64,000 nucleotides of DNA, from positions 1,012,501 through 1,076,500 of the forward strand of contig JABTUV010000001.1 in NCBI GenBank assembly GCA_015075175.1. The letters are read 5' to 3'. This DNA comes from a bacterium. Lineage in GTDB: Bacteria; Hinthialibacterota; Hinthialibacteria; H5-UNCL2. Position numbers and translations under genes: made by a program. Under the pieces are notes generated by a model that saw only the letters and a list, made by a program, of their open reading frames with translations, had not been told where the DNA came from and searched no databases. Of this stretch, positions 35,728-64,000 are shown piece after piece; the first letter of the stretch is position 1, and every line of letters starts with the position of its first letter.

Positions 35728-35803
35728 GCCGGCGGGTAAACAGTGGGTAGAGCAGTGGTTTTGTAAACCACGGGTCGAGGTTCGAAGCCCTCCGCCGGCT
35801 CCA
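35728..35803 (+). tRNA. tRNA-Thr (anticodon TGT), non-canonical D arm; phage integration site
   Basis: The acceptor stem GCCGGCG/CGCCGGC is perfect and an encoded CCA follows. The anticodon arm GTGGT-TTTGTAA-ACCAC gives TGT, threonine. The T loop TTCGAAG is present, but the T stem pairs only as GAGG/CCTC. In the D arm the right strand AGAGC is normal while the left strand reads GGTAAACAG instead of an expected TAGCTCAG, so the D stem cannot form. It may be a degenerate or partly replaced tRNA, or hold sequence errors. Phage genes begin 43 bp downstream, making this the probable attachment site. Confidence 0.72.
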
Positions 35804-35845
35804 ACTGATTCTATTGCACTTACGAATTACTGCTACCCAAAAGTG

Positions 35846-37030
35846 CTAGCCGTAATGATGCCAGGAAATGCCGAGAAATGGGTCTATGCGGGCTACACCT
35901 ACGCCGCCTGGCTTGATTTTGCGTCGGAGCATTTCTTTCCGCGCAAGGTCGCGCGCCTCGATCACGCCGCGCACAAACTTCACCTGTTCCGGAGCGGGTG
36001 GTCGAAGTCCAGGCGGGCAGCGTGCTCGTTCAGTGCCCGAATGGTCCGCTTGCCGGCCAAGATGCTCAACTCGTGGTACTCCTCGGGAGTCCAGTACTGC
36101 TCATGCCCCTGCTTCCCATAGCGCCACGAAGGGCCTTCCGCCGCCCACACGTCGTTGGGATTCTGGTTGTTCCAGTTAACGATCATGCGGTCGAGGTTCT
36201 GCTCCAGTACAGGCCGGTCGTCCGGCCAGTGTTCTTCTGCCTTGACCGGGGAGAACAGCCGGAAGAGGAAGTCCGTCGCCGGGTGGACAGCAGGCCGTTT
36301 GATGACCTCCTGCCCCCACAAGTCCACACGCGGCATCATGCCGGCGGCGCCGGGATAGGGCGCAAGTTCATACTGCACCCGCCGCGCATACTGCCGCCAC
36401 CATGCGCTACGCCTCGCCGCGGACCGCCGTTTCCCTGATATACGGATCGGTGTTCGCGCCGTACCCCGTATGATGTTGGGGACCCACGAGGCCGCGAAGT
36501 TGGCCGCGAACTGGCTGGCGTACCGTTCATCCTCAATGGCGTTGACTAGTCGGATAGCCCCTGCATAAACGTTTTATCCTGACTCTGGGCGACGAAGTAC
36601 TTCCAGAACGCTCCGGCCGCCGCGGTCATCTCCTTGCCGTCGCGGGCCGCCCTGATGTTGTGCAAAAGGTCCACAAGGGTCGTCAGCCCCGTCGCCATCG
36701 GTTCAACATGGCCGTAGCCGATGTACGTACCGGTGCCGGGCACGCGAATATGCTGCGGCGGGATGGTCCGATAGGCGACATCTCGCTGCCCACGCCTGGT
36801 TCCGCGGTAGGGCATGGACCCAGTGATCCACGGCTCCTCATCGTTGTCTCCACCGAAGAAGCCGAGCAGCCCCATCAGCCCGATGGTGACGGCCATGCTG
36901 TTGAACGCTTCCGCCAAGTCGCGCACCGCCGTTCGACGGCTGTACGTCGGGTCGCCAGACGCAACCCTGTAACCGGCGTAGATTGCGCCGAGCGGTTGAA
37001 CGGCGCAATCCCGCCTTGTAGATATTCACG
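35846..37030 (-). pseudogene. Frameshifted C-terminal end of the giant phage protein
   Basis: The main frame of the giant gene loses natural composition after NVNIYKAGL near 37015. Coding sequence continues in other frames: LGAIYAGYRVASGDPTYS then AVRDLAEAFNSMAVTIGLMGLLGFFGGDND (to 36546), RLVNAIEDERYASQFAANF (36545-36450), ANTDPYIRETAVRGE (about 36430), YELAPYPGAAGMMPRVDLWG (to about 35990) and VKFVRGVIEARDLARKEML, ending ISWHHYG at 35846. At least five indels are needed. The sequence looks like one continuing membrane-associated C-terminus of about 390 residues, either decayed at the prophage edge or affected by sequence errors. Confidence 0.7.
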
Positions 37031-40000
37031 TTGGTCTTGAGGAATGGGACAAGGAAGTGGAGCGGCCAGGCGACACGGCGCAACTCCATAACTTTCTGCC
37101 CCACCTTGCCGAGGTCCCGCTGAAAAGTGAGGTCGATGGCCGTCTCCACTCCCCGCGTCCAGGCTACCGAGGAGGTATCCGCGAGCAGCGCACTCATGCG
37201 GCTTTGCAGTGCGGCGCCCGCCAGGCCCTCGGCCTTGGCGATGCGGTAGGCGACGGCTGCCGCCTCCATCTCCCCGACGATGCTCTTCTGGAACTCATCC
37301 ATCGCCAGCAACGCCCGGAACGGGACGCGGATCGTCCGCCCCAACTTGCCGCCGATAGCCGCGCGATGGGAGTCGATGGCGCGGTTGCCGCCGGCCGTAC
37401 TCCCCATGATTTCATCCTCGAACATGGGCCGCTCAGTACGCCAGGAGGCCAGCAAATTGCGCACCCCACGGGCGAACCCAGGCTTCATCGCGTGAAGCAA
37501 GTACTTGAATTCTCCGAATTGCGCCTGGTCGGGAGAGCCTACGGCCAGCGCGTTCCATGCGGCCTCGGCAAACCTCTGGATGGTGAACTCCCAGAATGCG
37601 TTGGCCGTGTTGCCCACCAGGTTGCGCACATGAGTCGCGGTTCCCGAGAGCAGGCCCGCCTTCCAGAATTCCACCAGTTTCAAGGGAAGGTGAGAGCGCG
37701 CCGCGCTGATTTCGTCTTCCATGCGGTACGCCTCGTCAGGGTTGGCGAGAATCTCCCGGAGTCGCTCCATGTCGAATCCGCGCGTGACAAGCAGCTGGCG
37801 CAGCCTGACGATCTCCGACGCCATGCGCTTGATGATCCGGTCCTTCTGCTTGCGCAGTCGCTCGATCTCCTCGGGCGAGGCCGCCTTGCGCATCTCCTCG
37901 TCGATCTGCTTGATCACCTTCTCGTCTTTGGGGTCAGGCTCCGAGATCATTTCGGAGATTGCATCGGCGGCCCGCTGCGCCGGAGTCTTGAATCGGTCGC
38001 GCCGCTGGCGGAAGGCGCGAGCCTGCTCGGACCCCGACTGCCGCCACGCCCAAACAAGCCGTTGCACATCCGCAACGCGCTCGACCGTTGCGCCCGGAGT
38101 CAACACCTCCAGCGTCTCTTGCGCTACGACGCGCTGGGCGGCGACCGTCTCCACATCGGAGAGCATCCCGGTCTCCATCCGATTGAGCAGATACGCTCGG
38201 GCGTCGGGTCGGGCCAGGAGTTGCTCGGCCGCCGCCCCAACCTCGTCGTCGGCCCGGCGCTCCGGCCGCCCCACCTGGGTCCGCCGCTCGTCCACGTCGT
38301 CCACAAAGGCGCGGCTCTCCTCGGTCATCGCCGGATTCGCCAAGTCGGGGCGCCCGCGCGTCCGCTTCTTTACCTGGTAACTGCCGCCTTTTGGCTTGAA
38401 ATCGTGGAGCCAATTGTATAGTCTATCCCCAGAAGGCTCGGAGGGCCCGTCTCCTGCATTGCCTAGCGGAGTAGACCGGCTCGAAGGGCCTTCTTCTATG
38501 ATCCTCGCGTGCGTTACGTGATTATCATAGTAGAACGTCCCGTCGTGCCTTTCTCTCAGCGTCAGCCTGATATATACTCGTTCGCCTTCGAGCGTAGCCT
38601 TTACTCCGTAGTGATGCCAAGCCTTAATGGACGACCTATCCCCTGGGCCCGGAGCTTCTGACCACGCGCGCACCGCCCCGGACAACAGGGCGGGGAGTGA
38701 CGGTATAATCTTGACGATCCGCAAGTCTGCGCTTTGCGACTGGGTCTTTTTCAAACCCGCGGGCTCGAATATTACGGAATGCCCGTCGCGTGTTTTCGGA
38801 CGTTGCCGGGAGATTCGACGATACTCGACCCGTGCGACCCGGCGAATCTCGCCGGCGTCCTCGATGCCGGCGAACGCCGAAGTATCCACCTCTACCGGGT
38901 CCATCTCCAGGAGCATCCGGCGCCGCGCGTCCTCGTCGGGCGGGCCGATTGAGTAGTGCTCCTGAACTTTTCCAACGCCCCGCACCGGCCGGCTCCAGAA
39001 GCCCGGAGCATCCAGCTGGGCCAGAATCTCAGCCGCCCGTGGTGTGGCAATTCCAAAGAGGCGCAGGATAAAATCCCGAACTCTCTGCCAAATGCTACGG
39101 CCGCGGCTGTCCGTCGCGGTTTCCGCGACGCGCGCGATCATCTCTTCCTGCCGTCCTGGGTCGGTCTCCCCAGGAGCATACTCGTCTACCAGCGCCTGCC
39201 ATTCACCCTCGGAGAATAACCCCAGGCTGCGCGCCACGTGCACGCGCTCATGGCGCAACGTTGCATCGTCCGCCTCCCCCAAGAGCAAACGGAGCAGGCC
39301 CAGCGCGCCGGTGGTATTCCCGTCGACGCCGGTAAATTGCCAATGTCCGGCGACCACGATCTCCGGATCGTCGGCGACGGCGTCGCCGTATTCACGTCTA
39401 ATCCGCTCTCGGTCGGCCGCAATGTCGGAGACCCATTGTGCGCCGAACTCGGCTCCGTTGGGCAATAGCACTCGGTACCCGGAGCGGCCCTTGCGCTCGA
39501 CCAGACTGCCAGGAAACGCCGAGGCGATCTCCTCTGGCATGAGCATGGCCACGCCGCGCTCGGTATCGGCGCCTCCGACCTGGGCGTGCCCGTCGGTCAG
39601 CGCATGGTTTAGGTCCTCCAGCTCCGCCTGGGCCCGCCTCAATTCCGCAGCCTTGGGGAAAGGTTGTCCTACGCTCGCCCGAAGCCTTTCGGCTTCCTCC
39701 TGCGTTCGCTCCAAGTGCCGCTGAAAAGTAGTGACCTGATTGAGAATCTCCTCACCGGCGCGTCTAATCGCCAGCAAGACACCGCGCCCCGTCTGCGCCT
39801 GACTCCACACCACAGTTACATCGCCGAACCGTACTTCCACGCCTACAGTAGGGTTCCACGTGGTAACTTGAAATCCCGACGCATTGAGCGTGCCCGTGGC
39901 GTGCGCCCCAACATGCACCCGCACCTGATACCCGGCGATCTCCGCCTCTAGGGCGACTTTGGCACGAGCCGCCGCATCGTGCTGCTGCCCGCCCCAATGC

Positions 40001-43000
40001 ACCCCAAGGGCCTTCTGCCCATCAAAGACAGCCTTAATCCGTTCAACCAGCGCAGCGTCGAGGGCTTTCTCGGCCTCCTTGCGGTCGGCGTACTCCACGC
40101 CCTCGATCTCCGCCACAAACGGAGCCGCCCCCACGTGCTCTGCCTTCCGGTTGATCTCCTGCCAGGTCTCCAGGTTTCGCTCCAGGGTTGGGATGCGGTC
40201 TTCGGCCGCCTTGAGGCCAGCCGCCTGCCGCGCCTGGGAGTCGGTCCACGCCTCCTGCTCCAGCGACAGCGCCCGTACTTCAGCTTCCAGGTCCAGCTTG
40301 CGAAAAATGCGAGGATCATCGGCGTAGGCCGCCATCTGCTCCCGCGCCGAAAGGATCACCCCGCCGAAGGGATCGTCGAACTCGCGGCCCTGAAGATTGC
40401 CCGACCACAGCTGTTGGATGAACGACGCCTTGCGCAGGTTCGCGCCCCAGATGGCGGCGTCCAGCGTGCTTTTCATCCCGTAGGAGTACACCTCCACCAC
40501 GGCGTTGGTATTGCCGTAGCGTATGATCCGCCCTTCGCGCTGCTCCACGTCCGACGGCAGCCAGGGCGCGTCCAGGTGGTGCAGGGCCTTGAGCCGCTCC
40601 TGGACGTTGACGCCGACCCCCATCTTCTGGGTTCCTCCCAGAAGCACCCGGATGGTCCCCGCGTTCATCGCCTCGAAGAGCTTGGCGCGCTGGGCGTCGG
40701 TCTTATAGTCGTTTATCACGGCGATTTCTTCCTTCGGCACGCCAGCCTTCACCAGTTTCCGCGTGATGTCGCGGAATAGCCACAGGTCCGCTTCGCCCTC
40801 GACGGCTTCGCCCTCAGCGTCGTCCGGCTCGATCTCCAGGCTGATGTTCTTGCGCTCGGCGAAACTGCGCAGGAGCGACACATCCATCGGGTTGTAGGAA
40901 TCGCAGAACACCATCTGCGTAGTCTTGTCCTTTGCGCCCGCCCGGTAGATTTCCAGTACTTTCTGGATCGCGATGTTGACCTTGGAGTTAGGCTCATCGG
41001 CGGCGTTGGGCTCCACCAGGCGGATGTCCAGGGCAGCCTTCTTGCCGGCGTTGTAGAGCAAAATAGGGATGTAGCTATGCTGCTTCTTTTCGTCGCCGGA
41101 CAGTCCGGAGAACGCCTGCATGACCTCCCCCAGGAAGGCCACGAACTTCGAGACTCCGGCGGTCCGCTCCACGGCCACGCTCTGCGTTCCGCCCCCCGCG
41201 ACCTCCGGCATTCCGTTGCCCATGTCGCTGAGCATGGCCCGCAGGTTTTGCGTTGACAGAATGTCCCACCGGCTGCGAATAAACGCCATCAGCTCCGGCC
41301 CGTTGGTGTATTTGGCCAGGGCGTTTTTGAACACCCACTTCATAGCCGCGTTCATCGTATGGACCGAGCTGACCCGGGCGAAGGCTGAAACGAAGCGGTC
41401 GAAGGTCGTTATCCCCCACTCCTTAATGACGTCCGGAGCCATGATATTAGTTAGGTGCCAGGCCTCTCCCAGCGTGTTGGTCACCGGAGTCCCTGTCGCC
41501 AGGTAGACTCCCCTTCCACGGTTGTGGTCCTGTATGTACCGCGCCTTCATGAGTACGTCGAATGCGCGCTGGCTTTCCTGGGTTTCCAGCCCCACAAGTT
41601 TCGGCAACTTGGTTACGAACGGCGGTTTCTTGTAAGCATGAGCCTCGTCCAGGAACAAGGCGTCCACTCCCAGGTCGTCGAAGTAAACGTCGCCATCGGC
41701 GCGGGCCCGCACCTTGGCCATAAGGCGATCAAGCCGGTCCTCAAGCCGCTTCTTCTGCTTGACCAGCTGCTTGACCGTGGGCGCCTTCTTGCCTTCCCGC
41801 TCGGACGCCTCCTCGATGACCTGCTCCAGGTCGCGAATCATCTCCTGCACCCAGGCCGCCATGCGCCGGGGATCGTTCTCGATCAGTCCGAACGAAGACT
41901 GGGCCATGATGACCGCGTCCCAGTCGCCCGAGGCGATCCGCCCAACAAACTGCCGCCGCCTGGAGGACTCCAGGTCCTCCTTGGTCGCCACGAGCACGTT
42001 CGCTCCGGGGTACATCTGCCGGAACGACGCCGCGAATTGCGGCAGCGTGGCGTTCTGGACCACGAGCAGGGGCTTGCGTGCCAGTCCCAGCCGTCGCAGC
42101 TCCATCGCGGTGGCGATCATTGAGTAGGTTTTGCCTGCGCCCACGGCGTGGGCGATCAGCCCCGCTCCCTGCTGAATCAGCCGCCACACCAGGTTCTTCT
42201 GATAGGGGCGCAGAGCCACGTCCACACTGCTTCCGGGCAGCGTCAGATGGGAACCATCGAATTGCGGAACAACGTAAAAATTGAACTTCTCGTTGTAAGC
42301 GTCCTCGATTTGGCGGCTGGCGTCGGCGTTGGCCAGGACCCAGGATCGGAACGCCTCCTGCAGGCGCTCGGCGGCGGCCCGCGCTGCAACCGTCTTGGAG
42401 GGGTTGAAGACCCGCGTGGTCCCGCCCTTGCCGTCGGGCACGGAGTCAAACACCTGAATATCTTTCAGGTTCAGAAGATGGGCCAGGACTTTGTCCGCGG
42501 GCATGTCTGGCGTGCCATAGGTTTCCGTGAAATCGACGCCCAGGCCGCGCCCCGATACGTGCCAGGCATCCGCCGCCTCGGAATAGCTGATCCCCAGGCG
42601 ACCGCCGTGGAGCACCTGGCTGGAAAACTCCTGGACGATGTTCTCCGGGATCCAGGCGGACCCCAGTCGAAACCCGACGTGCGCTATACCGATTCGCTGC
42701 GGCTGAACAGCCTCCAGCGCCGCCACATTGCGCCGATAGGCGCTGTCCTGCTCCGCCGCCGCCTGCGCCTCGCGCAGCTTCTTGCGCACGTTCCCCGACA
42801 GGTACAAGTCTCGGGGTTCGTACAGCCCGCTGACCGGGTCGCGGTAGACCGCGCCCTGGGCCTCCAGCTCCGCAATGATCTCGCCCTCGCCCTTTCCGGT
42901 AATGCGCGCCATGTACTCCGGGTCGATCTTGCCGTAATAGGCCATCGAGATGAGCATCGCATCTTTGGCGCTATCGGCACGTATGGGAATCGACCACGGC

Positions 43001-46000
43001 CAAATGGTACGCTTGGCAAAAACCGCGGCCTTGCGCCACACCTTGATGAGTTTCGCCGGGTTTTTGGGGTCAACTGCCTGCTCGACATTCTCCAGCGACA
43101 GGATGAGATAGTAACTGGGGTCGGGGGAGAACTTCTTGGTGGAGTGCCCCCCCAGGGCCCCAAAGCGGCGACGATAATCGTCGTACAGTCGGCTGAGCTT
43201 CTTCCGTGACGCCTCGACCTGCTCTTCACTGGCGGTCGGGTCCTGCATCAATCGAATGTGTTCGCGGTAATGGTCGCGCAGCCCAATGTAGGCCCGAGCC
43301 TGAATCAAGTGCGACCCGCCCTTGATCTGCGGAAAGACCTCGGAGGCGGGGACGAACTTGCCGCCTGAAACGGCGACCAGATCTCCCTTGGGCGAGAGCA
43401 TCAACTCATTCTCACGGCGTCCCTCCGCCTCTCCCAGCGTCGTGAAGTCCACGGCCGCAGGCGCCGCCGCGGAGCCTGCGATATTCTCGGGCAGGCGCGC
43501 CGTCGCCTTGGCCAACTCTTCGGCCAGGTTCGCGCCCGGCCGTGGCTTGAGCGTGAACTCATCGGCGCCGCCGTACATGGTCCCTTCCATCGATGGCGTG
43601 CCCAGCATGTTCTCGGGGTGGGCGTGGAAGTACTCGTTGACCTGGCCGGTCTTGCCCTCCATCTCCATCGGCAACACGGCGGCCCACGCCTGCCGCCAGG
43701 CAAAGCCCCCTCCGTCCGGCTTGCGGAAGATCAGAAGATCGGTCGTCACCTCGGTCCCGGCGTTCTCCGAAAAAGCGTTGTTCGGCAGGCGGATCGCGGC
43801 GACCAGGTCGCCCTTGCCGGCGATCAGCTCGCGCTGCTGCCTATTGGCGTCCATGGTGAAATGAGTGGAGATCGCCAGGAGAATCCCACCCGGCCGGAGG
43901 GCGTCCAGCATCCTCACGATGAAATAGTTGTGGAGGCTGAGGTCCTGTCCGTACTGTTCTTTGGCCTGCCACGGCCCGCCCGCAGCGAATGGCACGTTGG
44001 TGATGGCCAGGTCGATACTGGACGGCGGAAGCCCGACCGTCTCAAAGCCGCGGTTGAAGACCGTCGCCCGAGGATAGAGCTTGGCGAGGATACGCCCGGA
44101 TAGAGAATCCAACTCGATGCCGACGAGATTGCTGTTCGCCGCCAGGTCCTGGGGCATCAGCCCGAAGAAATGCCCGACGCCCGCAGCGGGCTCCAGCACC
44201 GTCCCGCCCGTGAACCCCAGCCTCCGAGCCATACCCCACATGGCCGAGATCACGCTCCGCGACGTATAGTGGGCATTGATGGTGCTAGCCTGGGCCCGCT
44301 CCCATTCCTCCTCGGTCAGGAGCTCGTGCACTTCCCGGGCCAGGGCACCCCACTTTTTCTCCCAGGCTTCGTCGCGTCTCCCATGCCGGAAGTGGAGGTC
44401 TCCGCGCTGGGCAGCCTCCATCGCCTCCCGTTTGCCGCGGTCAAACACTTGCGACAATCCGCCCCATCCCGTGTACCTGGCTAGAACACGTTTTTCATCG
44501 GCAGTCGCCTCGCGGTTTTCGGATTCAAGCACACGCAATAGGCGGATAGCTGCAAGGTTGGCGCGCGCCTTGGCCACGTCTCCCTTGGGAGCGATTTCGT
44601 CCTCTGGCGCGATGGAATGGTTTACTCGTCCATCATCTTCGCCTTGAATCGCTCCAGCATCTTGCGGCCCCGGGCGCTCAGCTTCGGCGGGTTCTCCGGC
44701 GGATCCGGGTTCGACGGTGCCACGATCTCCGCGTATGCGATTTCGGTCGCCTGAGCCTGGTCCATCCTCTGGTTGAGTACGAGACGGCCGGCGACCTGAA
44801 TCGCCCGGTCGGCCACGCCCTCCAGGTGCTGTTTCAGGCGCCCGTTCCGCAGGAGGCTCTCCAGAAACTGCGGCTGATTCTCCTCTAGCCACGCCAGATG
44901 GTCCCAGAACTCTTCGGCGTCCCGAAGGTCCGTCACCGCGCCCTCCATGCTCGGCTCCGACATTGCGCCCACCCCCTTTCTCGTCAGACTGGGCTTCACC
45001 GCTCTCAATCGTACTCTCGCCTTCCGCCTGGGTCAACTGCTGGGCGTTCTCCGGGAGAACGTCATAATCTTTCAGCGGGTTTGCGTCATCCTGCACGACG
45101 TACCGCCTGATTCCCCCGTGGCCGTCAGGGACAGCATCGACGATCATTCCTGTCCGCGTTACCCCATCGCGGGTACGGAACTGAATGCGATCCCCCTCCC
45201 TGAAGCCAGGGGCCTGCGTAACGACTGCCTTCTCCTGCGTGGCCGGCTGCTCTACCGGCTTCCTACCCTTCCACCACGAGACCCAGACCGGAATCTTATC
45301 GACTCCCAACCGCTCAGCAGCGAGTGCGCGGTGGCGTCCTTCTTGCTCGATTACCTCTCCTGTGTCGGCATTGCGACGCAACGAGACCGGTTCAAAATCC
45401 TTGCCCTCACGCATCGCCTTTTCCAGCTCGGCGACGCGCTGCTCATCTATGAACTTGCGCCCAGCCGCATCGAGATACTCAGCCGGCGACATCTCCACTA
45501 CCGTTTCGGGCCATGCTTCCCGACGCTGCCCCCAGGCAATCCCGACAGTTTCCCTCTTGCCCTCCGGCGCCCCTTTCGGCTCAGGTGGAGGAGCCGCCTC
45601 GCCCGCCACATCCGCCCCGCCCGCAACCGCATCCTCGGACTCTGCGGGCGCCAGGAGATCCTCGTCCACTACCACGTCCCGCCCGCCCTCGGTGACGCGC
45701 ACCCGGCCCTTGCGCCCGGAGCGTCCCGCCACGGTCCCCCGCCGTTTGACATCGGGTCCGCTGGGGTCCGTCCCCACAACTTCATCGCCGACCTTGATCT
45801 CGGTTCGCGCGGGAGGCTCGGTCGGGGCCGCCTCGCCAGGCTCATCCGCTCCAGCCTTCCGAGTCGGTTCTCCCGGCTTCGCCTCCTGAATAGGGAGAGA
45901 CGGTGGAGCCTCTTCTGCGCCGCCCTCAGGCGCAGCCGGACCCGGCTGGGGGCGGGGGGCCTCTTCTGTCTCCTGGACCACGGAGTCCAGCAGCTCTCCA

Positions 46001-47443
46001 ATCTCCTCTGCCTCCTCAGCCGAGAGGTCTGGAGCTGCCGCGATCTCCGCTATCTGCGGCGGAACCGCCTGGTTCTCTTGGGGTGTTACCGGCGGAGTGC
46101 TCTCCGGGGGCGTCTTTCCCCCTACGTTGGGGGATTCGGGCGCCGGGGCCCCTCCCCCGACCACCAGTGTTACCGGCGGAGTGGCCCCAGGCGGCATCCG
46201 CAAGCGGGCCGCCAGCCGTGCGCGTTCTGCGGCGTTCGCGCGGCGGAGCCCGGGCATAGCCACAAAGAGAAACTCCAAGTCCCTGCGCGACGGCTTCTCC
46301 TTGTCGCGCAGCGCCGCCATCTCGGCGGGGAACGCCTGCACCAGTTCAGCCAGGTCCTCGTCGGTCAGATCGTCCAGGCCCGGTCTCGCTTCGGCCTCGG
46401 TCGCCGGCGCCGGTGGTTCTCCCGGCCCCGGCGGGATCTCGGCATCCTTCTGTTTGCCAGCCTTACGCTGCTCTGCAGCGGAGCGGCGGGAGATGCCCCA
46501 TGCCTCCTCGACCGCGGTCTGCCCCAGCCCGCCGACGACTTCAGCGGCGATGCCTCCCGGCGACAGCTCCTCGCCAGCGGCCAGCTCGCCGGCCGCCTCT
46601 CCGCCGGCGTCAAGCGCCGCTTGCAACAGCGCGTCCAGCGCCTTGCCCGTGATCCCGGGGATCGCCTTGGCGAACTTGCCCGCCGCCCCCATCGACGTAG
46701 CGTCGGCCAGGGCGATGGGCCCCGCTTTCAGGGCGGCCGAACGCCTGACCCGCGCCATCTTCTTTGGGTCGGCGAACGCCATGCGCAGCGCGTCGGCGTC
46801 TCCAACGTCCACGCCCTCCTCGGCCAGTGCCTCCATCAGCTTACCCGCGTATTCCATGGCAAACGATCCAAGGCCGGTCCCCGCAACCAAGCCCGTAATA
46901 TTTCCGGCCGGCCCAGCGACCGAACCCAAGGCACCACCCGCCACGGTCAGCGGCAGCTGCCCCATCAGATACTGGGTGAACATCTGGGCGCCAAGCTGCG
47001 TGGTAATGTCGATGGGGTCGAGTGCCAGGTTCTCCAGCATCTCCACCCAGGTCTTCGACTCGACAAAACGCTTGGCCTCTTTGGGGGTAGGGATACGCGC
47101 AGCCCGTTGGTTGGCCTGGGCCAGCTGCTCGAAGACGTCGGCACCGCCCGATGCGGCCAGGGTCAGGAGGCTCTGCTCCGCCTGGTTGGCGCCTTGCATG
47201 GCCATATTCGCCAGGCCCCGGAAATAGCCCGGCTCCTTGGGCTGCGGCTTGGCGGGGGACTCTTTGGCCAATCGTCCGTCCCTGACCTTCGCCCACCACT
47301 CGGCGAAGTCGTCGTCGGCGCGCGGATGGCCCGGCGACCGGGGGCCATCATCAGCTCTCGAGCAGCAAGTTCGATCAGGATTCAGCCATCAGGGTTCCGC
47401 TGGGGACCAGGGGCTGTTCCACTGCGGCCACGCGCTGTTTCAT
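36838..47443 (-). CDS. Giant polyvalent virion protein: ParB-like, methyltransferase, helicase, zincin and BECR nuclease domains
   Basis: The uninterrupted frame 47271-36838 has 3,477 codons. In order: Ala/Gly-rich amphipathic region (1-280); SH3-like barrel (about 490-550, EIKVGDEVVG); ParB-like nuclease fold (about 590-670, QEGRHRALAAERLGVDKIPVWV); second barrel (about 690-740); low-complexity segment (about 760-885); N6-adenine methyltransferase (motif I VLEPAAGVGHF near 1024, AITNVPF near 1090); SNF2-like helicase (HAVGAGKTYS near 1712, LDEAHAYK near 1875, TGTPVTN, QREGRIIRYGN near 2247); zincin (RHERVHVARSLG, an HExxH, near 2675); BECR-type RNase region (WHHYGVKA, FYYDNHVTHARI near 2884); and a hydrophobic helical C-terminus. 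The first residues (ATG 47443, MKQRVAAVEQPLVPSG) are linked by about two indels. Such polyvalent proteins are thought to be injected with phage DNA. Confidence 0.85.
44622..44963 (-). CDS. Nested alternative-frame gene inside the giant gene
   Basis: A 113-residue frame starts at ATG 44963 with GAAAGGGGGT seven nt upstream, a strong ribosome-binding site, and stops at 44622, just where recognisable methyltransferase N-terminal sequence of the giant protein begins. The product looks like a real helical protein: FWDHLAWLEENQPQFLES, then LKQHLEGVADRAIQVAGRL, then MDQAQATEIAYAEIV, and a basic tail RKMLERFKAKMMDE. In the giant frame the same DNA gives a Gly/Arg/Pro-rich low-complexity stretch. Either it is a true overprinted gene, or a segment of the giant protein displaced by two compensating indels. 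It is loosely reminiscent of small TnpV-like proteins; function unknown. Confidence 0.65.
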   Translation of the reverse strand: MSEPSMEGAVTDLRDAEEFWDHLAWLEENQPQFLESLLRNGRLKQHLEGVADRAIQVAGRLVLNQRMDQAQATEIAYAEIVAPSNPDPPENPPKLSARGRKMLERFKAKMMDE

Positions 47444-50001: not shown

Positions 50002-51159
50002 TTACCTCAGAACTTGATCCGGGTGGACCAGCCGATTGCTATAGATGGTTTTTCGCCGCATGATCCCGTCTAATACGCCGCTCATCGTGACCTCAATGAT
50101 CGCCCCCGGTCCGTAGCGCGGGTATCCCGCGATCTGGCTGGGAATCTTGGCCAGAGTAACCAGGTACATACCCAGCTCGACTGGAGAAACGTCACAAACC
50201 CGGGTGTCGGCGATGGCGGCGCCCACCAGGATCGTCATTACTGCTTCCGGCGTCTCGGGCAGATAGGCCGCCGCTCCTGTCCCGTTATGGACCAGCACGC
50301 CGTAGGCGAATGGGCCTCCGGGACAGAACCGTAGGTCCTGGTCCCAAGGGTCTATGGACCATCGCCCGCCCGAGGTCTCCCAGAACGACCGTTCCACATC
50401 CGCCTGAATCGTCACTTCGATCTCGGCCTCTTCCGTCGCCGTAGTCCAGGTGTCGTAGGCGGAGAATCGCACCGCGTAGGCTCCGATGGCCGCGTATGTG
50501 TGCGCGGTTGTCCCGGAAGCCCCGAAGACGTTGCCGCCGAGCGCCGTCCAGGTGAAGGCGTCGTAAGCCTCATTGACAGGCAGCTCCCATTGAATGCGCA
50601 GCCATCCGCCGGTAGCGCCAGGCGCCGTACTGGTGGCCTGCCAGACCATCGTGGCCGACAACGGGTACTCCCCGCTCGTGGGCGTGAGTGAAATGGAAAT
50701 CTCCACCGCCCCGGGCGTCGGCGTCGGCGTCGGCGTGGCCGTGGGGGTGGGCGTATGCGTAGGCGTAGGCGTGGGCGTGGGAGTCGGACTAACGGCGATA
50801 AAAGTCGTCTGCGCGTGCTGCTGCTCGACTTCATTCCAAAATACCGCCGTCACCGTCCACGTGCCGCCGGACAGATAGGTATGCGTGGCGCTGATGGTCG
50901 CGGTAGCCCCAGAGAGCGGACCGAAAACGTGCACATCGCCGAAGTTCGACCCCTCTCCGCCCTCAAAGTACAGGGCATAGCCGACGAGAGAGCCGACCGT
51001 GGTCGTCGCCGACACCGTAAGCGTGGCGTCTACCGGCGTGGTCCCGCTGGCCGGCGTCAGCGAGTCGATGGAGACCACGAGGTTTTCGCCTCCGGCGCCC
51101 CAGCCGGGCAACGGAACAAAGATCAGGCACAAGATGAATGGCATCAAGCACTTACGCAT
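50002..51159 (-). CDS. Exported protein with two PKD-like domains and Thr-Pro repeat linker
   Basis: The 385-residue product has a signal peptide (residues 1-21, ending GWGAG). Two immunoglobulin-like PKD domains (LTPASGTTPVDATLTVSA and LTPTSGEYPLSATMVWQA) are joined by a run of about 14 Pro-Thr/Pro-Ala dipeptides. A C-terminal beta domain follows. AGAAGG lies upstream of the ATG. An exported, Thr-Pro-linked protein in a late phage operon is unusual; it may be displayed on the lysogen surface or be a virion adhesin. Confidence 0.75.
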   Translation of the reverse strand: MRKCLMPFILCLIFVPLPGWGAGGENLVVSIDSLTPASGTTPVDATLTVSATTTVGSLVGYALYFEGGEGSNFGDVHVFGPLSGATATISATHTYLSGGTWTVTAVFWNEVEQQHAQTTFIAVSPTPTPTPTPTHTPTPTATPTPTPTPGAVEISISLTPTSGEYPLSATMVWQATSTAPGATGGWLRIQWELPVNEAYDAFTWTALGGNVFGASGTTAHTYAAIGAYAVRFSAYDTWTTATEEAEIEVTIQADVERSFWETSGGRWSIDPWDQDLRFCPGGPFAYGVLVHNGTGAAAYLPETPEAVMTILVGAAIADTRVCDVSPVELGMYLVTLAKIPSQIAGYPRYGPGAIIEVTMSGVLDGIMRRKTIYSNRLVHPDQVLR

Positions 51160-51214
51160 GTTAGCACCTTCTTTCAATATTTTCGCACACATACTACTAT
51201 ACCGAAGCCGGGTG

Positions 51215-52413
51215 TCAACTCGGCGCCATCTGCCCGCCGACTTCCGGCGAGACCATCGCCAGTCTCCCGATCACGGCGTTTCCCCGCATCACCACACCGT
51301 CCACGCTGATTGGGTCTGCCACGGGCGCCTCGGAAAGGTCCGCGTTGTCTTTTTCCACCACGGCCCGACTGCCGTCTCCGATCTGCCTGATCCAGGTCCG
51401 CGCGGCCAGGTAGCGGTTACGTGCGATGGTCAGCCCCTCTACGTTCATGTGGGCGATCTCGGCGTCGTACCCCGGCCCGCGGTCGGCCCCGTTCCAATTG
51501 TACAGAAAGATGTTCTCGCGGATTACGGTGTTGAGGCAGGATTCGGCTCCGCCCTCCGAGGACACTACCAGCCCGCTGTCGTTGCCCACGAACACGTTCC
51601 TGATCCACTGCGTACTGTTCGCGTTCAAGGCATATCCACCCTTGCCCCAGTTGCCGACGATTACGTTCTCGATGATCGAGGCGCCGTGGGCGTTGAAGTC
51701 CACGGCGATACCCCCCGAGTCCTCGTTTTTGGGCGAAAGCGCCGCCGCACATCCGGTGATCCGGTTGCCCTTGAACGTCCACAGAATGAACGGATGGGCA
51801 GGATCGGTCTCGGTACGGCGTCCGTCATTCAGGTGCAGCCCGCAGGCCGCGTTCCCGAGCGCGCCGGGCGTTCCCGCCAGTCGGTTGCATTCGGAAATGA
51901 GACAATTTTCTACCAAGCCGTATCCACCCCAACCGGAGGCTGCCCGCGTCTTGTAGGCGGATACTCCCGCCTGCCCGCAACCGCGGATGGTGCAGCCTGA
52001 GACCACCAGGCGGTCGCCTGGAACGGTCGCTGCCGTGAACAGCACGCCCATGCCGCCCACGTCGAGAATGGTGCACCCCTGGATTAGCACCAGACGCAGC
52101 CTGGGACAGCGAGCACCGTCAGATGGGCTCTGGTCGAATCAGGGTCATTCGCCGCACTGCCCCGGATGGTGCAGCCCTCGATGGTGATGTCCCGACCCCT
52201 CGACGTGATGGCGCGAAACGCCGATCCGTCAAATTCGCATCTCGAAAGCGTGACGTTTTTCGCCTGGGTTCCGAGGATCAGGTGGGAACCGCGGTCGTCT
52301 GGTATGGTCGGCCCTGCTGCGAAGCGGCATCGCTCCAGCCGCACGTCCGGCGAGTTGACGATGACCTGGCCGGCATAAGTTTGGTCCGAATACACTCCCG
52401 AAGCTAGGATCAT
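51215..52413 (-). CDS. Right-handed beta-helix tail-spike-like protein, frameshifted
   Basis: About 398 codons of parallel beta-helix repeats: VRLERCRFAAG, VTLSRCEFDGSAF, ITIEGCTIRGS, then in the second frame MLIQGCTILDVGG, LVVSGCTIRGCGQ, LVENCLISECNR and IIENVIVGNWGKGG. The break at about 52090 (LAVPG into LRLVLIQGCT) needs one indel. Such proteins bind or cleave cell-surface polysaccharide. No catalytic residues are identifiable. Confidence 0.75.
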
Positions 52414-52787: not shown

Positions 52788-54538
52788 CAATCCCCACTCC
52801 CGAAAGCGGTCAAACTGTCTAGTACATACCAGACAGTCGCCGTGGTCGTTCCCGTCCCAGGCGTTCCATTCATGTAGACCGAAATGATGTCGCCATTACC
52901 GAAGGTGTCCACGCCGCGGTCCTGAAAGCTCCCCGCTGGGTGAGAGCTAGGATTAACTTCGTAAACCGTCACACCATTCTTGCGGATTTGGTAGGTGTTC
53001 GTCGATCCAAGGTCCGCCGTACTGTTGACCAGCGTGATACCGACGATCGACCCTGCCCCGGGGCACACAAATCCATAGGTGGAGCTGGTTTCAACTCCGT
53101 TATAGTCCGCGTAAGCGTTCTCCCGCGTGATCACGAACTCCACGTTCAGCGGGGCCGCCCAGGTCTTACCCGTGCCGGTTGGCGTCACGTCCCCAGCTAC
53201 GTCCAAATCATCACTCAGAACGAACTTGCCCGGGTTATCGTCCCACTCCAGGTATTCCGCGCCTTGATCGAAGTAAAGATAATCGTCATCGCTGATCGCG
53301 GCGTTGCCGACGTACACGGGGCCGGAGAAGCGCGCTATATCTCCAGCGGCATCGCCGAACCACGAATCTCCCGTGGTTCCGAGCGTGCCATTGATCTCGA
53401 ATAGGTAGGTCGTCGGGTTCGTGTTGTTGATACCGACCTTTCCACCCTTGATCGTAAATTCGTTACGGTATGTACCCCATGTACTCAGCGTCGAGAGTAT
53501 CGCCCCGTTGGTAGACCATCCAGTCGATCCTCCAGGCGTACGAATGCTGAAGAGTACGTGATCGGGGCTATTATCACGCCAATAGATTTCGTTGCTGTCG
53601 CCGGAGAGCCGGTGATACCCCGAGAAGTTGCTGCTGCCGCCATATAGCGTACCGTCTGACATCGAGGCATTACCCGACCCGTCGAAGAGGAAGGTCTTCC
53701 ACACAGACCCAGCATTGTTCCACAGACGAAACGCCGCCTGATTGTAGCCGGCGGATCCGCCCACGCTCATGCTCATCTTGGCGAAGGGATACGAAGCCGT
53801 GTCGGGTCTTGTGCCGATGAGCACGTCATTGAGCGCGGTCCAACCGCCTGTCACATACTGGGTGGTGTTGACATGAAAGTTTCCCTGGAAACTACTGACC
53901 GTGCCTACCTGCAACGAAGCGGTGGTGACCTTTCCGCTAACTGTCAGGTTCCCGCTGATAGTCCCGCCGGTCAGAGGCAGATAGGTGGTCGCCAATTCCA
54001 ACGTGGATTTGGCCGCTGCCAGGTCGTCAAGGTGGGTGGCATACCCAGACCACCTGTACGCCTTGAACAGCACGGTCTCTGGAATGTCGGCCTCTACCAG
54101 CGACCTGAAGGAGGGGTAACCATTCCCAATTCCACTGGCTGGACCGGCAAACACATAATTCGCGGCCTGCATGACCAGCGCCAGCTGTTGATCGCTGATG
54201 GACAGAATCTCAGTCGCGCTCGCCAGACTGACGGGCGGGTGAAGCGCCGCCGTCACATCTTCCAGCGTGGCGAGTTCCGCACCGCCCTTCCATCCCTCCA
54301 TCATGCGCAGTGCCGGTACGGTCGCGCCCATTACCAGTGCCGCATAAATCTGCTCGAAAGCGCCTTGCGCCGTGCGCCAGTCATGGGTGTCGCCCGAAAA
54401 ATCCGTCGCCGCCTCCAGCGCCGGAGTCGCCGGGCGCACCTGCCAGCCGGCCACCTCGGCGTGGCACATCTGCGGGCTGCAGCCGCGCAGAACCAGGGCG
54501 GCAAGCCCCAGCAACCACAGCCTGACTCTGCGCCTCAT
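52787..54538 (-). CDS. Tail fibre / receptor-binding protein
   Basis: The 583-residue product has a short hydrophobic N-terminal stretch with a Cys (LVLRGCSPQ), a helical region, and then a long fibre-type body with repeated beta motifs typical of phage tail fibres: YLPLTGGTISGNLTVSGKVT, VGINNTNPTTYLFEINGTLG and ISDDDYLYFDQGAEYLEWDD. The C-terminal roughly 130 residues form a beta-sandwich-like receptor-binding head. Its start overlaps the previous stop by 4 bp (ATGA). Confidence 0.8.
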   Translation of the reverse strand: MRRRVRLWLLGLAALVLRGCSPQMCHAEVAGWQVRPATPALEAATDFSGDTHDWRTAQGAFEQIYAALVMGATVPALRMMEGWKGGAELATLEDVTAALHPPVSLASATEILSISDQQLALVMQAANYVFAGPASGIGNGYPSFRSLVEADIPETVLFKAYRWSGYATHLDDLAAAKSTLELATTYLPLTGGTISGNLTVSGKVTTASLQVGTVSSFQGNFHVNTTQYVTGGWTALNDVLIGTRPDTASYPFAKMSMSVGGSAGYNQAAFRLWNNAGSVWKTFLFDGSGNASMSDGTLYGGSSNFSGYHRLSGDSNEIYWRDNSPDHVLFSIRTPGGSTGWSTNGAILSTLSTWGTYRNEFTIKGGKVGINNTNPTTYLFEINGTLGTTGDSWFGDAAGDIARFSGPVYVGNAAISDDDYLYFDQGAEYLEWDDNPGKFVLSDDLDVAGDVTPTGTGKTWAAPLNVEFVITRENAYADYNGVETSSTYGFVCPGAGSIVGITLVNSTADLGSTNTYQIRKNGVTVYEVNPSSHPAGSFQDRGVDTFGNGDIISVYMNGTPGTGTTTATVWYVLDSLTAFGSGD

Positions 54539-54900
54539 GCCGCCAGTCTCCTTACGATGGCCTCGACCCGCGAGTCGGTGCGAATCCCCTGCCCGTCCTG
54601 GTCGTAAACCAGGAACGTGCCTTCCGCGCTATCCACCACATCGACCTGCTCGCACGGCCACAGCACGCCGTGAACCAGAACCCAAATCTCGTCGAAGCCC
54701 CCGCCCTCCACCAGCTCCCATGCTGTCCCGTTCCAGGTCGCCGCGATCCGATATTGATTCCACCACTCAAAGCCCCCACCGCCTCCTGCCTCACTCTCTC
54801 CCAGAGGCAGAGCGTTGATCCGCGCCTCCAGCGCCGCCAGCCGCTGTAAGATTCGCCGGACCTCCAGCGGACTGCGCGGCTCGCGCACACCCGACACCAT
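54535..54900 (-). CDS. Phage hypothetical protein upstream of the tail fibre
   Basis: The 121-residue product has an N-terminal helix (VRRILQRLAALEARINAL), a Gly-rich spacer and a beta domain with Trp/Tyr (FEWWNQYRIAATWNGTAWELVEGG). It is possibly a fibre-attachment or chaperone-like protein. ATGA overlap with the fibre gene. Confidence 0.6.
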   Translation of the reverse strand: MVSGVREPRSPLEVRRILQRLAALEARINALPLGESEAGGGGGFEWWNQYRIAATWNGTAWELVEGGGFDEIWVLVHGVLWPCEQVDVVDSAEGTFLVYDQDGQGIRTDSRVEAIVRRLAA

Positions 54901-57371: not shown

Positions 57372-57631
57372 CAGGCCGTAGGCCCGCCTCCGTTGGCGTC
57401 GAAGTCGCATTCATCGTGGTCTCCGATGTTGATGTAGAGAGCCGCGTTGATGTCGGTTGCCCCGCGCTTGATGAAGAGGCATCCCGCCGCGTAGCCCGCC
57501 GTGCCGTCTTCGGGCACAGTGTCTCCCCACGCAAGGAGAAACCCTTCTCCATCGTGGAGGATGCCGCCGCTGGTCCCCGCAGCGCCGTGCCGCGCCAGCC
57601 CACGCTGTCCGAATAAGTTGATTGGATTCAC
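57371..57631 (-). CDS. Small phage structural protein
   Basis: The 86-residue beta-rich product begins at a GTG (GTGA overlap with the upstream stop) preceded by GGGAG, and ends where the tail protein ATG begins (TGATG). Segments LLAWGDTVPEDGTAGYA and ALYINIGDHDECDF suggest a small decoration or tail-accessory protein. No family recognised. Confidence 0.55.
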   Translation of the reverse strand: MNPINLFGQRGLARHGAAGTSGGILHDGEGFLLAWGDTVPEDGTAGYAAGCLFIKRGATDINAALYINIGDHDECDFDANGGGPTA

Positions 57632-60131: not shown

Positions 60132-61160
60132 CTACGAAGGCTTGTGGAGAACCGCCTGCGCCCGCCGATCCGTGCACAGCATGTTCCACGTCAGGTCGAT
60201 GTAGACCACGAGCGTAGTGTGCTGACTCGGAGCCTTCTCCGGGCCTTGCTCGCGCAAATACTCGCCCCGAAGGAACACAGGGTGAAAATAGGCGTAGTTG
60301 ATGAAGTACACCGGGTTGGTGGTGTCCGCATCCAGGTACGGAACCCAGACGATGGGGTTGCGACGGAAGGCGATGCTCCCGTCATACGGCGCCAGGTCGC
60401 GGCCAAGGTTCTCGTTCTGGGCCTCGCCCACGTCCTCCAGCGCCTCCATAGTCTCCAGGTTCACGTAGATGCGGTACCGGTCCCCACGCCCGCTCCGGTA
60501 GTCGGGGATCGACACCGGGCTCTCGAAGTGGATTTTCCGGTACGCCCGCCGCATCAACTTGATGAGGTCGGCCTTGGACACCTGGGTGTAGGCGCCGGTG
60601 TAGTTCCGGAAGTTTGCGTGCGAGAGGCCGCCGGGACCTGCCGGAAAGCCCGCCGGGTTGCCCCCGTTGAAGCCCTCGCTGGCGTTCTTCTGAATCCAGA
60701 ACGGGATGCCCCACGGCGCCAAAACGTCGCTGACATCGGCCGGCGCCGACCAGCCGTCCCGCTCCATGATCTTGGCCAGCCCCAGGAAGGCTCCCACGCG
60801 CCGCGTCTTGACGATATCCACGATCTTGGCCGCGGACCGCTGCATCGCGATCTCCCTACGCTCGAATGGGTAGTTGGTAGTCGTATGCGTCCAGGGGATG
60901 GTGATCTGCTCCAGCACGTCCCCCGCGTTCACTTCGTCAACGGCGAACAGCCCGGTGTGCCGCGCCCCCTCAATGATTCTCACCATCAGGTTGCGCTGAA
61001 TGGCGATGCCGTCGTCGAATTGCTTTTTCTCTCTCTTCATGATTCGGCCCATGATCTCGTAGGACTGAAGGTCCTGGGCGATCTGGTTGAACTTCAACCG
61101 CCCCAGCTCCTTCAAGGTCCCCTTGACCATGTCCTTGATTTGGTCGACGCTCAAGCTCAT
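60132..61160 (-). CDS. Major capsid protein
   Basis: The 342-residue product has a helical N-terminus (DQIKDMVKGTLKELGRLKF), a central region ITIPWTHTTTNYPFERREIAMQRSAAKIVDI and a C-terminal beta-rich half (RYRIYVNLETMEALEDVG, FRRNPIVWVPYLDADTTNPVYF). Size and gene order (portal, scaffold, capsid, decoration) match major capsid proteins of short-tailed phages. GGGAG precedes the ATG. Confidence 0.78.
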   Translation of the reverse strand: MSLSVDQIKDMVKGTLKELGRLKFNQIAQDLQSYEIMGRIMKREKKQFDDGIAIQRNLMVRIIEGARHTGLFAVDEVNAGDVLEQITIPWTHTTTNYPFERREIAMQRSAAKIVDIVKTRRVGAFLGLAKIMERDGWSAPADVSDVLAPWGIPFWIQKNASEGFNGGNPAGFPAGPGGLSHANFRNYTGAYTQVSKADLIKLMRRAYRKIHFESPVSIPDYRSGRGDRYRIYVNLETMEALEDVGEAQNENLGRDLAPYDGSIAFRRNPIVWVPYLDADTTNPVYFINYAYFHPVFLRGEYLREQGPEKAPSQHTTLVVYIDLTWNMLCTDRRAQAVLHKPS

Positions 61161-61177: not shown

Positions 61178-62158
61178 TTAAAACTCTTCTTCGTCCTCAA
61201 TCGTGCCCACGTTGAAGGCGCGCATCTGATCGCGAACGAATCGAGCCGCCCGTTTCTCGGGGGGCAGCCGACTTTCGTCAGACGACTCGCGGTGCGTGGG
61301 CCGAGGACTCATCACACCTCGCCGGCGCTGCAGCTTGTTGTGCAGCCCCCGCTCCTTCGCCGCCTCCAGCGTCTTGCAGAGCGCCGCCCGCATAGCCTGC
61401 TCGAAGAGCTCGCCCGCCGGAGGTACGGGCCTGCCCTTCTGCCGCAGCCCCTCCTCGATCACGTCCATCTGTTCTACGACCGCTATGCGGTGTTTCAGCT
61501 GCTCGGAGTCCTTGGCCAGATTCCGGGTGGGCCCCTTGCCGAACACCTCGACATACTCGGGGGAGATCTCGGCGAAACGCTGCTCCAGGAACGCCCCGGC
61601 TTCGGCCACCTCGCGCTCCCGGTCCTTGCTCTTGAGCTCAGCCCGAAGCCCAACGATCTCCTTGGACAGCTTGTCCACAACCGATACAATGGCCTCGTCG
61701 TACAGCTCAGGGTCCAGCTTGGGCAGGTCAAGACCCTCATTGTCCTCGCCCTGGCCTTCTCCCTTCTCGCCACCACCCTGTGCCGCTCCTTCGCCCGCCG
61801 GCCTGCGCCGCGCTAGAAGGCGCACAACCTTGGCCAGCCCCTCCGGGTCGTCCGAGTACTCGCCCAGTTCCTCGTCATTCATGCCCAGAGCGCGGGCCGC
61901 CTCGACCAGATCCTTGGCCTTGGTCTCCGCGTCGGCGCCGCGGGACGCTTCATCCGCACCGCCGCTTCTATCCTTGGGGGACGGATCGTCTTCGCCCCCA
62001 GCATCCACGCCTTCTTCCTCGTCCATGCCGAGGTCGTCGTCCTCCGGATCCTCGAAGTCGTACTCGGAGGCCGTCTCCTCGGGACTGGGTTCCAGGTCTT
62101 TCTCCTCGCTATTGAGCATCTCTTCGCCCTCCGCCAGAGAGCGGTGCTTCTCCGCCAT
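61178..62158 (-). CDS. Scaffolding-like protein
   Basis: The 326-residue, strongly acidic product has a disordered Glu/Asp-rich N-terminal half (FEDPEDDDLGMDEEEG), a coiled coil (VVDKLSKEIVGLRAELKSKDRERE), and a basic C-terminal tail with RRRGVMSPRP. This is the normal build of a procapsid scaffold. The ATG lies 1 nt after the upstream stop (TGAGATG). It is directly before the capsid gene. Confidence 0.75.
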   Translation of the reverse strand: MAEKHRSLAEGEEMLNSEEKDLEPSPEETASEYDFEDPEDDDLGMDEEEGVDAGGEDDPSPKDRSGGADEASRGADAETKAKDLVEAARALGMNDEELGEYSDDPEGLAKVVRLLARRRPAGEGAAQGGGEKGEGQGEDNEGLDLPKLDPELYDEAIVSVVDKLSKEIVGLRAELKSKDREREVAEAGAFLEQRFAEISPEYVEVFGKGPTRNLAKDSEQLKHRIAVVEQMDVIEEGLRQKGRPVPPAGELFEQAMRAALCKTLEAAKERGLHNKLQRRRGVMSPRPTHRESSDESRLPPEKRAARFVRDQMRAFNVGTIEDEEEF

Positions 62159-62159
62159 C

Positions 62160-62612: not shown

Positions 62613-62867
62613 TTACTCCTCCTTGGGCTGCGCGATGCACGGCCGCGAAAGCATCAGGTCGTAGAGCTTGCGCACCAGCTTCAGCTCATCGACCGTCCGT
62701 TCGTCTACCGCGTGGATGGCCGCCGTATTCCGCTCGATCACCTGGGTGTTCTGCTCGAAGAGCAAGAGCACCCGCCTCATCATCCAGAAGAGCAGCGCCA
62801 GCAGAACCGCGCAGAATCCCGCGAACCCGTATTGCACCATCGGCTGCATCAGCGGTGAAATCTCCAT
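62613..62867 (-). CDS. Small membrane protein with C-terminal coiled coil
   Basis: The 84-residue protein has one membrane helix (YGFAGFCAVLLALLFWMMRRVLLLF) and then a helical charged tail (NTQVIERNTAAIHAVDERTVDELKLVRKL). It resembles BhlA/UviB-like putative holins. Its ATG overlaps the portal stop. Confidence 0.6.
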   Translation of the reverse strand: MEISPLMQPMVQYGFAGFCAVLLALLFWMMRRVLLLFEQNTQVIERNTAAIHAVDERTVDELKLVRKLYDLMLSRPCIAQPKEE

Positions 62868-64000
62868 CAGGCGACCCCCACCGTCTGGCTATTCCTGCCT
62901 GCCGCGGCTACGGCGGCCAGGTTCTGCATGGCCAGGTAGTCGCGCGCGCCGCGCGTCGCCCCCGCACGGCTCACCCGCTCGTAGCGCCGCGTAGTCACCG
63001 CCGGCTTTACCACCGGCTGCGGCCGGATCATCCCCGGCTCAGGCTGGCGCGGAGCCTGGATTTGTACCAGCTCCTCCAATTCCGGCATGTTCGCGTAGCG
63101 CGCAATGATCCGCAAAATCCCCTCGAAGTCGGGCGCGATGCCCTGCTCGGCCATGAACGGAGCAAACGGCGCAATCACCCCGTTGACCACTTCCATCACC
63201 TTGGACAGCCGGCGCCCCGGCGACTCGTGCTGCATCGAGTAGGGCTCGATGTCGATGTTGTAGTCCAGAAAGTCCCCCTCCCGAGCCGTCGCGTCGAAGG
63301 CCATGGGAACCTCTATGCCCAGCCCGGCTACACGGAACGTGAACGGGATCTCGATCAAGGGGTCGTACCAGAGATACCAGCAGAGCGAACGCATCACCTG
63401 TCGGACGAACCTGTAGACGCGGTCCGTCATGTCGGCCAACCGCAGGCTGGCGTTCTCCGCCAGCAGTTGATCCTGTCCCAGCGTCTCCGACTGCGGCGAT
63501 AGCCCGCCCAGGAGGTCCAGGTTGCCGGCGTGATAGACGAACAAATCGCGCAGGTGCATCCCGAATTGAAGCGTGCCCACATCCGCCCCGCCGTAGCTCA
63601 CCGGCTTGATCCGATCTTGGTGCGGGCCACGGCGGCGACGCCGTCCAGCGCCCGATGATGGTCGCGCATCATTCTCGGACCCCGGCGCCGCCGCCGTAAT
63701 GTCCTTCTGCCGCTCCGCCTGCCGCACCAGCTTCCGGTAGATGGCATTGGCTACGTTGTGCAACTCCATCCAGACGGCGACCGGCGGGAGCGGCATGAGG
63801 TTCCCAGGAACGTCGCAAAACGACAAAATGAGATACGGTCCCCACTCCGGACCCTGCCACGGCCCGACCCGCAGCGGGCGCAGGTTCTCCTGGTCCCAGG
63901 CCAGGGTCATGAACAGATTCTCCCGTGGCAGCCAGAGGTCCAGCAGCTCGACGTAGTCGCAGTACTCCTCCGGGTCGCTGTCCGTACCTACCGACAGGCT
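62867..64000 (-). CDS. Portal protein, C-terminal part (runs off window)
   Basis: At least 378 residues, open to the window edge. Portal-type sequence is seen in YVELLDLWLPRENLF, WMELHNVANAIYRKLVRQAERQKDI, VSYGGADVGTLQFGMHLRDLF and LSPQSETLGQDQLLAENASLRLADMTDRVYRF. Between 63660 and 63610 the frame reads an improbable Arg-rich stretch (GAGRRRRRGPHQ), while another frame gives RDHHRALDGVAAVART, so two compensating indels probably lie there. It forms the dodecameric DNA-entry ring. Confidence 0.75.
   Translation of the reverse strand, partial: SLSVGTDSDPEEYCDYVELLDLWLPRENLFMTLAWDQENLRPLRVGPWQGPEWGPYLILSFCDVPGNLMPLPPVAVWMELHNVANAIYRKLVRQAERQKDITAAAPGSENDARPSSGAGRRRRRGPHQDRIKPVSYGGADVGTLQFGMHLRDLFVYHAGNLDLLGGLSPQSETLGQDQLLAENASLRLADMTDRVYRFVRQVMRSLCWYLWYDPLIEIPFTFRVAGLGIEVPMAFDATAREGDFLDYNIDIEPYSMQHESPGRRLSKVMEVVNGVIAPFAPFMAEQGIAPDFEGILRIIARYANMPELEELVQIQAPRQPEPGMIRPQPVVKPAVTTRRYERVSRAGATRGARDYLAMQNLAAVAAAGRNSQTVGVA

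Follow-up and report, generated by a model that had tools for sequence, protein, structure and literature searches.

A single open frame of 10.4 kb, running almost to a tRNA-Thr gene, raises two questions: what kind of protein does it encode, and is this protein the only product of the locus? Both are addressed here within a stretch of 64,000 nucleotides (the window; C1:1012501-1076500) from an assembly that is 84% complete; the 2,500 bases immediately to its left are recorded as N in the genome sequence. The explanation put forward, to which we assign a probability of about 0.83, is that a compact prophage of podovirus type carries a DarB-like polyvalent gene at this locus, within which a nested gene is coding and specifies a candidate partner protein.

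The giant gene and its prophage

The features that define the giant gene and the element that carries it are as follows.

36838..47271, minus strand: giant DarB-like polyvalent gene, main open frame, 3,477 codons (phrog_10089, 1577 bits)
35846..36837, minus strand: 3' remainder of the giant gene, displaced by frameshifts into at least two other frames (tblastn with relative L153)
36997..37710, minus strand: C-terminal helical region common to L153 (E 9e-22, 30% identity)
35728..35803, plus strand: tRNA-Thr (TGT), integration site
35755..35806, plus strand: attL, 48 of 52 bases identical to the copy at 70489-70540 (C1:1082989-1083040, beyond the window)
69645-70487: tyrosine integrase, directly before the att copy at 70489-70540
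60132..61160, minus strand: major-capsid-like gene (phrog_9953, E 9e-4)
62867..64000, on to 64654 beyond the window, minus strand: portal-like gene (SU10_portal, E 0.0023, below the cut-off)

The uninterrupted frame of 3,477 codons described in an earlier, sequence-only reading of this DNA is present; it starts with TTG and is open back to position 47388, and its length is not attributable to chance, since the frames of relatives also extend to 3.6-5.2 kaa. The same reading had proposed frameshifted ends on both sides, of which the 3' end was borne out: in tblastn searches residues 3188-3425 of the main frame were matched by the C-terminus of L153 (E 9e-22, 30% identity), whose alignment then passed into two further frames at 36731-36549 and 36531-36397, and a frame-aware coding model placed frame switches near 37003 and 36547. 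The upstream counterpart (47272-47443) gained no homology support.

The 3' part of tRNA-Thr recurs at 70489, right after the tyrosine integrase, and the element is therefore a prophage, of approximately 34.7 kb, inserted in tRNA-Thr with the integrase and the duplicated tRNA segment at its far end. The giant gene lies on the same strand as, and downstream of, the capsid-like and portal-like genes (both assignments being weak), and its frameshifted remains stop 42 nt from the tRNA/att site; this arrangement is consistent with its proposed position as the last late gene, while no family match was obtained for the neighbors that had been called internal core-type proteins. The structural genes of the prophage (35755-64000, on to 70540) are very divergent, and almost none match PHROGs or Pfam. 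The late gene string also includes a right-handed beta-helix protein (51215-52090; PF13229, E 1e-9), whose gene adjoins that of a PKD-like protein which has proline-threonine repeats and begins with what resembles a signal peptide (50002-51192). A Sak4-like / AAA_24 recombination ATPase of the prophage is found at 65441-66316 (E 1e-21).

The prophage copy is probably decaying, given that the last ~1 kb of the giant gene is frameshifted and that no large terminase was found at the prophage with four terminase models, which could have missed one among such divergent structural genes. The earlier notion of an intact takeover kit is therefore weakened or unsupported for this copy. Whether this genome retains the giant gene as a dead remnant only, with nothing at the locus still working, is a question on which we are evenly divided. 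Besides the frameshifted C-terminus and the terminase result, such a reading would account for the mismatches between the att copies (4 of 52 bases) and for a rate of unexplained frame switches, by the frame-aware coding model, of 3.5 per 10 kb in the prophage vs 1.4-1.5 in its flanks; it has to contend with a main frame of 10.4 kb that is still open with its catalytic motifs intact, with a terminase that could escape detection, and with the fact that the frameshifts may stem either from decay of the element or from errors in assembly. Further likely frame disruptions were noted in the prophage at 54535-57410, 61178-62428, and 62867-64654, in the form of low-complexity, arginine-rich ends or inserts.

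The LPD36-methyltransferase-SNF2 core

Three consecutive regions form the core of the giant protein, with LPD36, which carries a GXGU-type motif, N-terminal to the methyltransferase, and the SWI2/SNF2 ATPase C-terminal to it.

44317..44589, minus strand: LPD36-like domain with GXGG motif (GWGG, residue 935; G-W-G invariant in alignment A1)
43402..44274, minus strand: gamma-class N6-adenine DNA methyltransferase (NVPF at residue 1092; TaqI and EcoKI M profile matches)
40402..42354, minus strand: SWI2/SNF2-type SF2 translocase (GAGKT, DEAH; ResIII and Helicase_C over cut-off; PDB remodeller chains)

By its sequence, the giant protein is a divergent member of the known DarB-like polyvalent proteins, the PHROGs family that it matches being labeled 'DarB-like antirestriction'. 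Pfam recognizes ResIII and Helicase_C, both over cut-off, as well as LPD3. P1 DarB is a BLASTP homolog in both the methyltransferase part (E 5e-20) and the helicase part (E 6e-13); an alignment of nine cores (A1) keeps the LPD36 GxG motif and the methyltransferase and helicase motifs, and among PDB chains the corresponding profile matches TaqI, EcoKI M, and remodellers of the ISWI type. The methyltransferase and helicase assignments made earlier are thereby upheld at the level of sequence. Approximately 100 phage records were matched by tblastn, all at <60% identity and at 31-38.5% among the longest matches listed; they include Bcep22-like phages, PEp14, SopranoGao, VvAW1, and Itty13. When the whole giant protein served as a single query against viral contigs no relatives were recovered, whereas a family alignment recovered hundreds. 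The LPD38 model gave no match in the protein's own genome, where the control was silent too.

The NPP(Y/F)-type motif of the methyltransferase reads NVPF here, as it does in P1 DarB and in 96 of 172 relatives; the idea that NVPF marks a dead methyltransferase was rejected on account of its presence in P1 DarB. The site of the N-terminal TP-motif reads YTS, and with HYTS in 118 of the 172 relatives it does not set this protein apart from the family.

Zincin, LPD3 and ParB-like regions

Outside the core, three further regions can be distinguished.

38992..39609, minus strand: zincin-like metallopeptidase region (HERVH at residue 2674; conserved position and flanking motif)
38500..38883, minus strand: LPD3 domain, possibly of BECR fold (PF18798, 44.8 bits, cut-off 27)
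45280..45450, minus strand: ParB-like region (residues 608-664, GRHRALAA; phrog_1033, E 4e-4; ParB_N, E 0.025, below the cut-off)

The zincin proposed earlier draws its support from conservation. HERVH lies 963 residues after Walker A, within the same band as in relatives, where HExxH motifs cluster between +850 and +1250 after Walker A (38 distinct cases vs ~1.6 expected), and an alignment of the motif (A2) shows G, H, E, H, W, and A to be invariant. The region has no Pfam match, and a single-sequence structure model of residues 2555-2965, computed from no alignment, was unusable (pLDDT 43). A joint alignment of zincin and LPD3 failed, since relatives carry the two domains in opposite order.

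Where a BECR RNase had been suggested, Pfam reports LPD3 only and the PBECR model has no match; in Itty13, PBECR1 is a separate domain. An AlphaFold model of LPD3 from nine sequences reached a pLDDT of 80 and yielded no Foldseek match at E <= 0.001. The first three VIA-align rows for this model were two CDI toxin entries and an MqsA-MqsR complex entry (Z 5.5, 5.1, and 4.5), and these top matches (CDI toxins, MqsR) are BECR-fold RNase toxins. At Z scores of this size, a BECR fold for the LPD3 region is a tentative assignment, a hint from the predicted model. The ParB-like similarity that was also claimed is weak at the sequence level.

Known relatives of the giant protein

P1 DarB, the only member whose function is proven, travels in the virion, and its protection against type I restriction acts in cis on the DNA. 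Its N-terminus targets the protein to the capsid (PMC9024508). P1 DarB (2,255 aa) has the methyltransferase-SNF2 dyad with NVPF in common with the giant protein, but is nearly devoid of an N-terminal extension, with LPD36 near the N-terminus. Closer in layout are the DarB-like proteins of Bcep22-like and related podoviruses, with JC1 gp69, BcepIL02 gp70, PEp14, SopranoGao, VvAW1 gp01, and Itty13 as the comparison set. JC1 gp69 has been detected in purified virions by mass spectrometry, with 51 unique peptides, and its gene is located at the end of the morphogenesis module (PMC9144972). These podovirus proteins share with the giant protein the LPD36-methyltransferase-SNF2 core, a zincin region, the late-module position, and a size of 3.6-5 kaa; LPD3 is also present in BcepIL02 and Itty13, and VvAW1 (38.7 kb) has the same compact layout as this prophage. 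The giant protein differs from these podovirus relatives in that no N-terminal transglycosylase (SLT) domain was found in it, the zincin precedes LPD3 rather than following it, the 3' end of its gene is frameshifted, and identity is only 31-38.5%.

The LPD36-methyltransferase-SNF2 dyad, together with zincin, ParB, LPD, and BECR domains, was defined by Iyer et al. 2017 (PMC5512222), whose polyvalent proteins resemble the giant protein in domain set and late-gene context; no mention of an overlapping gene was found there. The proposal of a polyvalent anti-restriction protein, probably delivered with the virion and encoded at the end of a podovirus late operon, was thus the right reading, and one that had already been described (PMC5512222, PMC9144972); for relatives of this protein, delivery as an anti-restriction agent is established.

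A conserved gene nested in the +1 frame

The sequence-only reading did not see a conserved second gene inside the giant frame.

44622..44963, minus strand: nested (overprinted) TnpV-like gene, 113 aa, +1 frame (ATG after AAGGGGGTG, TAA stop)

The nested product, MSEPSMEGAVTDL...KAKMMDE (113 aa), is encoded across a low-complexity linker of the giant protein, just before LPD36, and the frame-aware coding model detects a changed frame within the giant ORF between 44950 and 44626. Queries with the nested protein in tblastn returned out-of-frame matches within the giant genes of relatives, and an iterated profile collected 147 ORFs at E <= 0.02. All of them read in the sense direction and are shifted by +1 relative to the giant ORF, and the best reversed decoys stood at E 1.4-2.7 across profile rounds. 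The +1 relation was checked by arithmetic in VvAW1, PEp14, SopranoGao, Atu_ph08, and POI1126. Among the 165 DarB-like loci with enough upstream sequence to be eligible, 149 carry a nested homolog at E < 0.03, and they span phages and several bacterial phyla. A hold-out profile built without the window retrieved the window ORF at E 3.8e-10 (next match in the 64 kb, 0.54), and a Firmicutes-only profile ranked it first (E 6.5e-4). A 72-aa consensus composed from the alignment matched 21 of 50,697 phage records, in all 21 cases inside a DarB-like gene, and in none of the 21 is the nested gene annotated separately.

The short darB genes of Verrucomicrobia (~1.7 kaa) have almost no N-terminal domain, and an ATG ~318 nt before the nested stop is often present in them, so that the N-terminus seems to be overprinted even in these minimal DarB proteins. 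No match to the nested gene was found in P1 DarB, which counts against a general role in DarB function. The idea of an injected anti-restriction kit is already known; no description of TnpV nesting or overprinting in DarB genes was found in the open-access literature, and the conserved nested gene is, as far as we found, undescribed.

Evidence that the nested frame is coding

An ordinary DarB-like protein could in principle be the sole product, with the conserved +1 frame arising as an untranslated by-product of conservation of the DNA or of the linker. The absence of a nested annotation from phage records fits such a reading, as does the frequency of long out-of-frame ORFs in GC-rich genes, where the shuffle null is high. 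Stop-to-stop length was discarded as proof of nesting, being too weak in GC-rich genes, and homology, codon-position, and pN/pS tests were used instead. Between divergent loci, mean scores vs shuffled sequences were 46.1 vs 13.2 for the nested frame, 32.9 vs 24.7 for the giant frame, and 32.0 vs 23.2 for the third frame; by this comparison of sequences only the nested frame is conserved, and the linker in the giant frame is not. In 68 close pairs, 49% of substitutions in the overlap fall at giant codon position 1, which corresponds to nested position 3, and in the flanks substitutions occur mainly at giant position 3 (49% and 57%). In the overlap (59 pairs) the nested frame has a pN/pS ratio of 0.33, the giant frame one of 1.77, and the third frame one of 1.11; in the flanks the giant frame has 0.28-0.39. 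Synonymous differences in the giant frame, at 0.48-0.59 in the flanks, are down to 0.14 in the overlap. The codon-position pattern and the pN/pS pattern are both those of the nested frame, and on their evidence it is under purifying selection in the overlap. The giant frame is open across the overlap in 73 of 74 cases vs 41 expected, some expectations being raised by short trimmed matches. What is conserved across the overlap is the TnpV-like product, the giant frame mainly staying open. Nested starts are ATG in 69 of 73 cases, and 58 of 73 are preceded by an SD-like site vs a 9% background, a count favored by the scan, which took the best-scoring start each time. With strong Pfam TnpV matches in Firmicutes copies as a further argument, an untranslated by-product is very improbable, and the sequence data strongly support a translated, selected protein.

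Programmed frameshifting, by which the N-terminus of the giant protein would be fused to the TnpV-like segment with no separate small protein being made, would explain why the +1 relation is constant. An ATG and SD site proper to the nested frame are usual, however (58 of 73), and the short Verrucomicrobia genes offer nearly no N-terminal domain to fuse, so that this mechanism too is given only a very slim chance.

Relationship to TnpV

The sole Pfam match of the nested ORF in the window is TnpV (PF14198; E 7e-4, 20 bits, under the cut-off of 27). Of 20 nested proteins across the family, 17 are recognized by this model at E <= 0.01 (best 2e-43), with strong matches among Firmicutes copies, and by sequence the nested product belongs to, or borders, the TnpV family. 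TnpV is catalogued as transposon-encoded, whereas the nested copy is overprinted within a DarB-like gene and unannotated.

The nested gene could be an independent mobile-element gene of unrelated function, kept in place by history, a reading to which we give somewhat less than even odds. Twelve Firmicutes genomes contain 84 TnpV matches, and of the 30 Firmicutes copies examined a large +1-related frame encloses 14, another 13 lie outside any such frame, and 3 are unclear; TnpV is also annotated on plasmids that have no DarB gene at that spot, and in Firmicutes anything between 0.7 and 3.9 kb separates TnpV from LPD36. In a Virgibacillus plasmid, an SNF2-related gene contains a nested copy that is not annotated. 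Stand-alone Firmicutes copies indicate that the protein does not depend on DarB for its occurrence, and the idea of a partnership is the weaker for it. Against independence stands the tight tie of the phage copies to DarB-like genes, in 149 of 165 loci and in all 21 database matches, at a nearly fixed place, and it is this near-constant linkage that leads us to favor the nested protein as a partner of the DarB module.

Proposed mechanism and significance

By analogy with P1 DarB and JC1 gp69, the giant protein would be packaged and enter the cell with the DNA, where its zincin could cut it into pieces, and the methyltransferase-translocase could act in cis along the incoming DNA and block type I restriction. 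The nested protein, of 65-130 aa and probably helical, would be made from the same mRNA as the giant protein and might serve in loading, assembly, or regulation of the methyltransferase-translocase; that it both originates from this mRNA and acts as partner of the DarB module is, in our estimate, about an even bet. The stronger claim that DarB-like modules of phages and other mobile elements are two-gene systems, with the TnpV-like protein as an obligate partner for loading, packaging, or action, is more doubtful, and we put it a little short of that. The fixed placement may go back to an ancestral tnpV-darB pair in which the downstream gene grew upstream through its neighbor.

DarB-like proteins are widespread and among the largest phage proteins. 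If a second protein is indeed encoded within their genes, knock-outs, proteomic searches, and expression constructs of darB-like genes would have altered or ignored two products at once. Overprinting itself gains a deep, well-sampled example in the nested gene, and the obscure TnpV family gains a context. As regards the annotation of DarB-like genes, the PBC5 record NC_003324 splits one into two genes and leaves the LPD36-methyltransferase part in the gap, a pattern suggestive of a frameshift in the record.
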